Shown here: in pieces, positions 50,074-58,729 of the stretch
Layout of the letters: each line of letters begins with the position of its first letter
Position numbering within the stretch: position 1 is the first letter of the stretch
The notes under the pieces: generated by a model
The model's input: only the letters and a program-made list of their open reading frames with translations
Databases searched by the model: none
What the model was told of the DNA's origin: nothing
Made by a program: the position numbers and the translations under genes
Assembly (NCBI RefSeq): GCF_000422765.1
Contig: NZ_AUGR01000002.1
Location: 62,001-126,000 of the forward strand
Source of the DNA: Neptunomonas japonica DSM 18939
GTDB lineage: Bacteria > Pseudomonadota > Gammaproteobacteria > Pseudomonadales > Balneatricaceae
Length of the DNA: 64,000 bases
Direction: 5' to 3'

Positions 50074-50296
50074 ATTAATTGCTCAAACGATATTAGGAGA
50101 TGGAAGTTTAACGGCTCCCCTATCGGTTATTAATAACTGAAAATGTAAAGCTAGGTAAAGATTTGTAAAACGAGAGAATCGCTTGATACAGATAAGTTGA
50201 TGTGCGCTTGTACTGCTAGTTTTTAGTACTTGACCAGTAACGTTAAACTGTTAAGTTAGTGGTGTTTTATAACTAATTCCGCACTGGAGGGTATTC

Positions 50297-50332
50297 ATGT
50301 TTGTAGTCAACACCTTCCGGGCAGTCGTCTGA
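50297..50332 (+). CDS. Possible 11-residue leader peptide upstream of rsgA
   Basis: ATG with the strong Shine-Dalgarno GGAGGG 5 nt upstream opens an 11-codon frame, MFVVNTFRAVV, ending in TGA at 50330-50332. It lies in a 358-bp gap with no other gene, 99 bp before rsgA. Codons 7-10 contain one arm of a long inverted repeat (50317-50324). The peptide ends in RAVV; hydrophobic -AVV endings occur in some drug-dependent stalling leaders (IAVV in ErmAL1), a similarity too short to prove anything. Existence as a translated peptide is inferred. Confidence 0.45.
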   Translation: MFVVNTFRAVV

Positions 50333-50427
50333 TCTCACGTAACACCTGATTTCTCTGCCCGGTTTCTAAGCCGGGGCTTACCAGCCCCTGATGAAACGTT
50401 TCTATGATGCTTTTATGCGTCAGGGCT
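50317..50427 (+). promoter_or_regulatory. Competing hairpins in the rsgA leader (possible translational attenuator)
   Basis: Five segments can pair in mutually exclusive ways. Segment 1, CCGGGCAG (50317-50324), pairs with segment 2, CTGCCCGG (50355-50362). Segment 2 (CCCGG 50358-50362) pairs with segment 3 (CCGGG 50371-50375). Segment 3 (GGGGCT 50373-50378) pairs with segment 4 (AGCCCC 50383-50388). Segment 4 extended (AGCCCCTGATG 50383-50393) pairs with segment 5 (CGTCAGGGCT 50418-50427), which contains the rsgA Shine-Dalgarno AGGG. A local hairpin TGATGC/GCGTCA (50405-50422) is a further option. The layout is like erm-type attenuators, read by eye. Confidence 0.5.
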
Positions 50428-50431
50428 TACT

Positions 50432-51481
50432 ATGACTACAAATTACTCTTTATCCCAATTGGGTTGGACTTCTTTTTTTCAGCAACAGCTTTCTCTCGAG
50501 GAGTGGGATGTTTTTATTCCTTCACGCGTTGTAGCGCAGCACCGTTCTTACCTCGAACTGATTAATCTACACGGAAAGCAAAGGTTACCACTTGCCAGTG
50601 ATATGCCGCTTCTTACTGTAGGTGATTGGCTTTTACTTGATGGAAAAGGCCGCTTTCATCGGGCGTTAAATCGGTTGTCGTTTTTCTCGCGCAAAGCACC
50701 GGGTAGCAAGTTGGTATCCCAATCTATAGCTGCAAATGTTGATACAGTTTTTGTTACGTGCTCACTCAATAGCAATTTCAGCCTGAACCGTATCGAGCGG
50801 TATTTGTCTCTTGTGAAAGACGCTGGTGCAGACGCTGTTGTGGTACTGACCAAAGCGGACCACTGTGAAGATGCGATGAGTTATGTTCGCAAGGTTCAGG
50901 CACTTGATACTCTATTGGTTGTTGAGGCCGTCAATGCTCTTGATGCTACGAGTATTCAAGGCTTAGATGCTTGGTGCGGTGAAGGAAGAACGATTGCGTT
51001 GCTAGGCTCTTCTGGTGTGGGAAAATCAACATTGATCAATACCTTGCTAGGGTATGCAGAACAAGCAACAGGCTTGATTCGTGATGCCGATGATAAAGGT
51101 CGGCACACTACCACAGCGCGAACTATGCATTTTATGCCTTGTGGAGGGATTCTTTTAGATTTACCTGGGATGCGAGAGCTACAAATTGCAGACTGCGAAC
51201 AAGGTGTTAAAGAGACCTTTACTGACATTAGCGACTTAGAAAAGCTATGTCGATTCAGTGATTGTCATCATCAGGACGAGCCGGGTTGCGCAGTTCAAGC
51301 GGCTATTGCATCTGGAGAGTTAGAGAGCCGGCGCTTAGCTAGCTTTAACAAACTAATGCAAGAGCAAGCTTTTAATAGTGCCTCGTTGGCTGAAAAGCGC
51401 GCTAATGATCGAGCCAAAACTCGCTTTTACCGCTCTGTTTCATCTCATCATGCTAAACAACGTAAAAAAGGATGGTCGTAG
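50432..51481 (+). CDS. rsgA: RsgA-type ribosome small-subunit-dependent GTPase
   Basis: 349-aa circularly permuted GTPase acting in late 30S assembly. An OB-fold N-terminus (about residues 30-95) precedes the GTPase motifs in permuted order: G4 VLTKADH (about 137-143), G1 LLGSSGVGKSTLIN (about 190-203), G3 DLPGMRE. A zinc-binding C-terminal region has CRFSDCHHQDEPGC. The start LSQLGWTSFFQQQL and the absence of the usual neighbours orn and psd suggest the stand-alone RsgA paralogue found in many proteobacteria; whether a second copy exists elsewhere cannot be seen. It has an unusual 5' leader. Confidence 0.9.
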   Translation: MTTNYSLSQLGWTSFFQQQLSLEEWDVFIPSRVVAQHRSYLELINLHGKQRLPLASDMPLLTVGDWLLLDGKGRFHRALNRLSFFSRKAPGSKLVSQSIAANVDTVFVTCSLNSNFSLNRIERYLSLVKDAGADAVVVLTKADHCEDAMSYVRKVQALDTLLVVEAVNALDATSIQGLDAWCGEGRTIALLGSSGVGKSTLINTLLGYAEQATGLIRDADDKGRHTTTARTMHFMPCGGILLDLPGMRELQIADCEQGVKETFTDISDLEKLCRFSDCHHQDEPGCAVQAAIASGELESRRLASFNKLMQEQAFNSASLAEKRANDRAKTRFYRSVSSHHAKQRKKGWS

Positions 51482-57829: not shown

Positions 57830-58729
57830 ATGAATGCATTTTTATATTTAAACACGGTATTAATTTGGGGTACGACGTGGATAGCCATCCATTGGCAGGC
57901 AGGTGAGGTGCCTGTTCTCGCATCAGTATTTTATCGCTTTGCTATTGCGGGTGTAGTGCTGCTGCCGTTGCTCTACTTGTTCCGACGTGTACAAACCACA
58001 ACGCGAGCGGATCACGGCTTTATGCTGCTGCAAGGTGTATGTTTGTTCTCAATGAATTTCGTATGTTTTTACACAGCAAGTCATACTATTGCTAGTGGGC
58101 TGTTGTCAGTTATTTTCTCTGCTGCCACCTTATTCAACGCAATGAATAGTCGATTGTTTTGGGGAGAGCGCCCCTCTTCTGAAGTTTTTTTCGCAGGAAT
58201 TTTAGGCGTGTTTGGGCTTTGCTTAATGTTTTGGCCTGAGCTTAGCCGTAACGGTTTTGAGCTATCTGATTTAAAAGGAATTGGTTTGGGGCTATTGGGT
58301 ACATACCTTTTCTCATTAGGAAATATGATTTCCTTGAGGCACAGCAAACAAGGGCTGAAGCCGTTAACAAGCAATGGTTATGCAATGATCTATGGTGCAC
58401 TCTTTCTTGCAGGCTTGATATGGATTACTGGTACGCCTTTGATATGGGATTCGAGTTCTCGTTATGTCGGGAGTCTGCTGTATTTGGCTATTATTGGGAC
58501 GGTTATAGGCTTTACTGCTTACTTGTCTTTAGTTGGTCGTATTGGCGCTAACAAAGCAGCCTATGCGACTGTAATGTTTCCTGTTGTCGCGCTTAGCCTT
58601 TCGACCGTTTTTGAAGGTTATGTGTGGAGCCTTAGCAGCGTGGTTGGCTTGTTATTGGTTTTGTTAGGCAATGGTTTAATATTGGGTGTTCGTTTACCTG
58701 GACGTGGCTTTTTAAATAAAAGTGCTTAA
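57830..58729 (+). CDS. EamA/DMT-family transporter
   Basis: 299 aa with ten predicted membrane helices in two EamA repeats. The N-terminus NTVLIWGTTWIAIHWQAGEV and the second-half GTVIGFTAYLSLVGRIGANK are typical of the family. TAGGAG lies 6 nt before the ATG. It is clearly different in sequence from the EamA protein at 42.8 kb, so this is not a recent duplication. A perfect parS site begins 7 bp after the stop. Confidence 0.88.
   Translation: MNAFLYLNTVLIWGTTWIAIHWQAGEVPVLASVFYRFAIAGVVLLPLLYLFRRVQTTTRADHGFMLLQGVCLFSMNFVCFYTASHTIASGLLSVIFSAATLFNAMNSRLFWGERPSSEVFFAGILGVFGLCLMFWPELSRNGFELSDLKGIGLGLLGTYLFSLGNMISLRHSKQGLKPLTSNGYAMIYGALFLAGLIWITGTPLIWDSSSRYVGSLLYLAIIGTVIGFTAYLSLVGRIGANKAAYATVMFPVVALSLSTVFEGYVWSLSSVVGLLLVLLGNGLILGVRLPGRGFLNKSA

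Follow-up and report, generated by a model that had tools for sequence, protein, structure and literature searches.

The gene rsgA2, coding for a paralogue of the ribosome-assembly GTPase RsgA, is preceded by a short leader frame whose first codons are able to pair with the rsgA2 start. This leader is probably a cis-acting translational attenuator of the toiL/erm kind, induced by early ribosome arrest (we put the probability at about 0.6). In line with such a function, the frame lies upstream of rsgA2 with a ribosome site of its own, and folding in silico predicts that the ribosome site of rsgA2 is sequestered when the leader is empty. The features, with positions in the window (the whole stretch of 64,000 nucleotides that was analysed), are as follows.

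50286..50291, + strand: leader Shine-Dalgarno GGAGGG, read in the sequence and conserved among relatives
50297..50332, + strand: leader frame MFVVNTFRAVV, 11 codons and TGA, start type ATG-NNT-GTW
50299..50309, + strand: 5' strand of helix P0, in leader codons 1-5, pairing with the rsgA2 start
50317..50324, + strand: arm 1 (CCGGGCAG), inside the leader frame, conserved
50355..50362, + strand: arm 2 (CTGCCCGG), partner of arm 1 or arm 3
50369..50378, + strand: arm 3 (AGCCGGGGCT), partner of arm 2 or arm 4
50383..50393, + strand: arm 4 (AGCCCCTGATG), partner of arm 3 or arm 5; 4:5 is weak among relatives
50418..50425, + strand: arm 5 (CGTCAGGG), including the rsgA2 Shine-Dalgarno
50433..50443, + strand: 3' strand of helix P0, the last two bases of the start codon and rsgA2 codons 2-4
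50432..51481, + strand: rsgA2, RsgA-family GTPase paralogue of 349 aa, assigned by domain and profile matches

The earlier note on this DNA described a GGAGGG ribosome site opening the 11-codon frame MFVVNTFRAVV, followed by a chain of pairings among five arms, the last of which contains the Shine-Dalgarno of the GTPase gene. All of these elements were found exactly as described. The frame starts with ATG at 50297 and stops with TGA at 50330-50332, its ribosome site is kept in relatives, and arm 5 includes the rsgA2 Shine-Dalgarno by its coordinates (50418-50425). The four pairings are 1:2 (50317-50324 with 50355-50362, 8 bp, -15.8 kcal/mol), 2:3 (50358-50364 with 50369-50375, 7 pairs, -10.9 kcal/mol), 3:4 (50373-50378 with 50383-50388, 6 bp, -10.8 kcal/mol) and 4:5 (50386-50393 with 50418-50425, 8 pairs, -11.9 kcal/mol). 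P0, a helix of 11 pairs between 50299-50309 and 50433-50443 (-12.5 kcal/mol), was absent from that description. It is mostly present in the minimum-energy fold of the leader stretch, the 160 bases of which fold more stably than 200 out of 200 dinucleotide shuffles (z -3.35).

The rsgA2 product contains the RsgA GTPase domain (PF03193, 144.8 bits against a threshold of 30) and matches TIGR00157 above its cut-off (133.8 bits against 100); its closest solved structures are RsgA chains. Its score with NF008931, the canonical RsgA equivalog, is 150.1 bits against a cut-off of 360. Canonical rsgA is a separate copy in the same genome (G000:C14), a 341-aa frame sharing 35% identity with rsgA2 across query residues 97-309. 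Judged by these matches, the gene in the window does belong to the RsgA family, as first supposed, and is a paralogue existing beside the canonical copy. According to a review, RsgA sits on the 30S subunit at helix 44 and the A-site (PMC6912228, excerpts). The upstream neighbour of rsgA2 is a divergent cytochrome b561-like gene, scoring under the cut-off of that model, and the downstream neighbour is the convergent lysA; a search for promoter-like sites upstream on the + strand found none.

No element of this form had been described as far as the earlier note was aware, and this is borne out both by Rfam and by the open-licence literature, among the matches listed. None of the Rfam 15 families matched the window at the gathering threshold, and the best score for the leader alone was far under threshold. 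No description of such a leader before rsgA was found in that literature, among the matches listed: a leader peptide is mentioned in the excerpts of PMC6912228 in the reference list only, yjeQ, engC and GTPase are absent from the text of PMC2864571 and PMC2659441, and rsgA from that of PMC8632094. Search for tRNA and tmRNA genes returned nothing.

Further, we examined distribution of rsgA2 and its leader. The orthologue search covered 116 genomes at family level, where orthologues exist; they were also detected in 84 of 390 genomes at order level (E<=1e-40) and in 32 of 369 at class level (E<=1e-45). Matches at phylum level occur in 89 of 398 sampled genomes (E<=1e-45), and some of them may represent other RsgA branches. 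Close relatives, such as L001 with rsgA2 89% identical to the window gene, keep the entire leader; its arm cores are invariant and its spacers vary. A covariance model spanning leader to arm 4 was built from 22 sequences (L026 was excluded from the model alignment A3). With matches limited to E<1e-3, thereby setting weaker ones (E 0.001-0.1) aside, it detected 22 elements among the 116 family genomes and 8 further ones among the 390 order genomes. All 30 are located directly upstream of rsgA2 by coordinates, one of them an apparent remnant. Twenty of the 30 served to train the model and so match by construction; the ten absent from the model are those of G044, G105, G078, G145, G380, G361, G152, G197, G284 and G132. 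Together with the type-I leaders, as we call those of close relatives, these matches confirm conservation of the short frame.

Two kinds of loci deserve mention in their own right. At L169 (G044:C182), an intact leader element precedes a 75-codon frame matching the N-terminus of rsgA2 only, which looks like a gene in decay that has retained its control region. Two genomes, G108 (L021, L103) and G284 (L054, L157), carry two rsgA2 copies, each with its own leader.

Irrespective of arms, a leader of the form ATG-NNN-GTN (7-24 codons, behind a ribosome-site-like sequence) is present in 67 of 142 rsgA2 upstream regions, a count in which at least two (L056 and L069) are chance matches; about half of the 142 orthologue loci show no such leader. 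At phylum level, 11 of 29 loci have the leader frame. It was detected in none of eight canonical rsgA loci, with 700 bases before the match examined. In the window, counting both strands (128,000 strand-bases), the leader motif has a single other match, at 58039 (+): a short frame starting ATG-TTT-GTA (MFVLNEFRMFLHSKSYYC) whose ribosome site is weak, probably a product of chance. In 12 genomes, the bare 5' pattern matched 55 times and the reversed control pattern 27 times; 11 of the 55 are rsgA2 leaders by coordinates, and the short motif by itself is therefore not specific. Short leader frames of other sequence also occur before rsgA2, by eye at least in L093, L096, L128, L131, L135, L140, L141 and L143, which suggests that leader control of rsgA2 extends beyond the MIV type.

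To follow the consequences of leader occupancy, 23 type-I leaders were folded with a ribosome mask set at each leader codon, under equilibrium conditions in which co-transcriptional order plays no part. The mean cost of opening the rsgA2 start was 16.5 kcal/mol with an empty leader, 9.9-10.7 kcal/mol with the ribosome at codons 1-9, and 14.9-16.3 kcal/mol at codons 10-12; three loci (L022, L074 and L075) showed little or no effect of the mask. With a tighter target, from Shine-Dalgarno to ATG, 18 of the 23 loci were folded. L008, L022, L048, L074 and L075 were excluded, and since the last four have no clear P0, the averages describe a favourable set: 9.0 kcal/mol with an empty leader, 4.2-5.4 at codons 1-3, 4.7-5.5 at codons 4-9 and 7.4-8.5 at codons 10-11. 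In the model, the empty leader contains P0, 1:2 and 3:4. A ribosome at codons 1-3 removes P0 alone, one at codons 4-9 brings about a switch to 2:3 and partly to 4:5, and at codons 10-11 P0 is back.

These models outline a possible course of events. Without a ribosome on the leader, P0 would close over hairpins 1:2 and 3:4, and rsgA2 would be shut, as sequence and folding both indicate. A ribosome held at codons 1-3 is predicted to melt P0 while 1:2 and 3:4 are kept, and rsgA2 would be open. At codons 4-9 arm 1 would be covered too and 2:3 formed, with P0 still open; at the stop codon P0 would re-form and shut the gene again. We infer that in unstressed cells a fast run of ribosomes to the stop would keep rsgA2 low, and that pausing in the first codons would yield more of this extra 30S-assembly GTPase. 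Candidate causes of such pausing are start-site drugs, faulty initiation, cold, immature 30S subunits and shortage of aminoacyl-tRNA. Because the predicted open range starts as early as codon 1, causes acting at initiation or at the first elongation steps would be favoured.

Covariation of the arms, proposed earlier as a check, is not significant in the type-I set against a tree-based null. The test comprised 21 type-I taxa (L034 and L103 were left out), 60 simulations and 13,232 pairs, none of which was significant; one of the 60 simulations reached the value of the best proposed pair, before any correction. This is partly due to arm cores that never vary. Arms 1-3 show almost no variation; visible compensatory changes are confined to the end of 1:2 (L048, L074, L075) and two positions of P0 (L003/L006 and L033). 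Among type-I relatives, P0 contains a T-T mismatch in four (L026, L029, L030, L032), and a fifth, L022, has lost it. Since the standard test yielded no significant pair, comparisons with shuffled and swapped sequences were made at the level of clades.

Clade labels were assigned by hand from family and genus codes, giving 25 clades, or 30 sub-clades in the chain test. For L034, with an interrupted frame, the start was set by hand in the swap, chain, clade-folding and codon tests; the partner-overlap and energy test was run without this adjustment. The latter test used 64 loci, that is, the 67 leader loci minus the chance matches L056 and L069 and minus L129, with GTG as codon 3. In 47 of the 64, the downstream sequence that pairs best with the leader start overlaps the start of rsgA2, compared with 38% for shuffled leader starts; at clade level the values are 0.75 and 0.34 (p=2.7e-4). 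Pairing energy of the leader start is better than in composition shuffles (p<0.05) at 28 of the 64 loci. Leader and start also fit each other better in native combination than after exchange of partners between clades (p=0.0035 and 0.0087). The partner sites themselves differ: type-I leaders pair with rsgA2 codons 1-4, and leaders of the MIVIRDLQAW type with the rsgA2 Shine-Dalgarno and start codon. As far as sequence comparison can tell, pairing between leader and start is kept while the sequence changes.

Folding across the 25 clades gave a corresponding picture. With an empty leader, rsgA2 starts are more closed than those of shuffles (8.7 against 6.7 kcal/mol, p=0.001). A ribosome at codon 2 lowers the opening cost by 2.26 kcal/mol, versus -0.11 in shuffles (p=1.4e-4), and the mean effect is 2.37 or 1.91 kcal/mol with footprints of 12 or 18 bases per side; at the leader stop there is no effect relative to shuffles (p=0.6). 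Opening at codon 2 is predicted in 17 of the 25 clades and is missing in eight (f1g12, f1g16, f14, f6, f38, f80, f120 and f14b). Counting differences above 0.5 kcal/mol, a ribosome at codon 1, 2 or 3 eases opening relative to an empty leader in 16 clades, and hinders it in 5, 5 and 4 clades, respectively. Nine phylum-level loci were folded as well (2 of the 11 leader loci, L253 and L254, were left out); the codon-2 effect exceeds 1 kcal/mol in three and is below -1 in four, and these nine stand outside the 25-clade statistics, which their inclusion would weaken.

The switch proposed in the earlier note would work in the opposite direction. A ribosome on the leader would promote 2:3 and 4:5 and shut rsgA2, a free leader would form 1:2 and 3:4 and leave it open, and rsgA2 would rise upon failed leader initiation. 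Its structural half agrees with our data in part: the four pairings all exist in the window, and when arm 1 is masked, about 5 pairs of 2:3 and about 3 of 4:5 do form in the model. Across 30 clades, leader codons form on average 11.1 pairs with arm 2, against 5.5 in shuffles (p=8e-8), and the exchange from 1:2 to 2:3 is commoner than in shuffles (0.56 against 0.09, p=0.001). The regulatory half fares differently. The start is predicted to open under a ribosome on the frame, not to be hidden, and it is the free leader that is predicted to be closed (9.0 against 4.2-5.5 kcal/mol). Between the 2:3/4:5 and 1:2/3:4 states, the cost of reaching the rsgA2 start differs by no more than 1.3 kcal/mol; the predicted sign is reversed because P0 dominates. 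Moreover, three links of the chain are found at a rate of 0.16 against 0.009 in shuffles (p=0.08), and all four are completed in no native and no shuffled sequence. The window itself scores two links, 1:2 and 2:3, in the automatic test, and 4:5 is the weakest part of the chain. We consider this switch unlikely. What does carry over is the broader suggestion that expression could depend on ribosome behaviour: from sequence and models, the conserved leader and its alternating structure are suitably placed for it.

Codons 1-3 of the leader are conserved in an unusual way, and this conservation spans about 20 clades. At codon 2, 55 of 69 rows have ATT and the rest mostly AGT, AAT or TTT; codon 3 is GTA (46) or GTT (20) across leader rows. 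A scan permitting any codon 2 found ATT in 55 of 56 AT-N codons, with one ATA and no ATC. Relative to the codon use of the genes, non-ATT at codon 2 was expected 11.1 times in 20 clades and seen 0.06 times (P ~2e-8), and GTC or GTG at codon 3 was expected 11.6 times in 24 clades and seen twice (P ~1e-5). One tRNA is thought to read both ATT and ATC. By these counts, conservation of AUG-A(N)U-GU(A/U) lies in the bases rather than in the peptide. Conservation of Met-Ile-Val at the peptide level was rejected, because codon 2 changes at its middle base and hardly ever at its third. Past codon 3 the peptides diverge (MIVVNTFRAV, MIVVITHPVKAAA, MIVIRDLQAWSKQS, MIVFMPNWAIA etc.), and with residues varying in this way the leaders do not encode a conserved arrest peptide.

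A separate observation concerns leader bases 5-7, which read TTG, GTG or ATG in the +1 frame in 63 of the 64 leaders; in 37 of the 64 a stop comes next. Interpretation as a second start codon was set aside as too weak, few independent changes lying behind the pattern.

The identity of codons 2-3 bears on the idea that isoleucine or valine shortage makes ribosomes stall at the open position, so that rsgA2 is induced in starvation. Most leaders indeed encode Ile-Val there, often with a third branched residue at codon 4, and stalls at codons 2-3 would fall within the predicted open range. Yet codon 2 may also specify Ser, Asn or Phe, the constraint acts on bases and not on residues (as seen from the preference of ATT over ATC), no run of regulatory codons or intrinsic terminator accompanies the leader, and the rsgA2 product makes no amino acid. 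Amino acid attenuation is hence quite improbable in our opinion. Transcription attenuation of the trp/his type was rejected outright, since no intrinsic terminator was found and a run of regulatory codons is lacking.

Likewise improbable is a constitutive set-point, in which leader and structure merely lower or buffer basal rsgA2 translation by re-initiation or coupling and respond to no signal: variable peptide and length of the leader, the 8 of 25 clades and 6 of 9 phylum-level loci with no clear predicted opening, and the fact that no signal has been identified count in its favour, but at clade level the predicted opening is limited to the first codons and does not occur at the stop, which exceeds what a set-point needs.

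An attenuator induced by early arrest, the reading we prefer, has well-known counterparts. In the leaders of ermC/ermB and cat86, arrest within the leader peptide frees a sequestered ribosome site via alternating hairpins. The rsgA2 leader would share with them the unmasking of a downstream site by an arrested leader ribosome, here predicted; it differs in having no conserved arrest peptide, in its predicted open position at the first codons, and in controlling a ribosome-assembly GTPase instead of a resistance gene. By analogy, the nearest measured counterpart is toiL, the upstream frame of E. coli topAI-yjhQ, in which structure joins the frame to the topAI ribosome site (PMC12121999, excerpts). 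Ribosomes held anywhere in toiL unmask that site, and this includes ribosomes that tetracycline or retapamulin traps at the start codon (PMC12121999, excerpts). Both systems combine a short upstream frame with pairing to a downstream ribosome site, in the manner of a Gram-negative translational attenuator, and in both, by description for toiL and by prediction for rsgA2, stalls at the start codon or within the frame unmask it (PMC12121999, excerpts). On the contrary, toiL precedes a toxin-antitoxin gene and not an assembly GTPase, has a conserved N-terminal peptide in place of conserved bases in codons 1-3, and responds to stalls at the end of the frame, where the rsgA2 leader is predicted to be closed (PMC12121999, excerpts). 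A more distant parallel is the uORFC-6-1 motif before hflX, a ribosome rescue factor gene of Bacillales: here too a candidate upstream frame lies within RNA structure, but gene, phylum and structure are different and an effect on transcription is suggested (PMC8632094, excerpts). The trp/his/ilv attenuators resemble the rsgA2 leader in a leader frame with mutually exclusive RNA helices, and differ in the terminator and codon run that it lacks (PMC2659441, excerpts).

If early arrest does control rsgA2, a paralogue of a ribosome-assembly GTPase would be under such control in many lineages, and ribosome assembly would be joined to sensing of translation stress. The second RsgA would gain a testable role in stress, drug response, cold or faulty 30S assembly, and the leader could serve as a built-in reporter for finding its own trigger. 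RsgA2 is related to the factor by which the decoding centre of 30S subunits is checked and matured. The leader might act as a test substrate for 30S quality, on whose strong ribosome site immature or misassembled subunits load, pause in the conserved AUG-AUU-GUA/U, melt P0 and yield RsgA2; this extension is speculative and we hold it to be rather unlikely. If true, it would amount to a feedback loop, with failure of early translation inducing the enzyme for its own repair.

Two additional pairings were noticed in the window. The leader Shine-Dalgarno region 50284-50292 can form 9 pairs with 50312-50320 (leader codons 6-8), both segments being well conserved among close relatives, and leader initiation may be tuned as well by this pairing. 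Further, TAAGCC at 50367-50372 can pair with GGCTTA at 50424-50429, adjoining the rsgA2 start. Relatives have AACC:GGTT or AGCC:GGCT as their versions of this helix, a possible sixth one.
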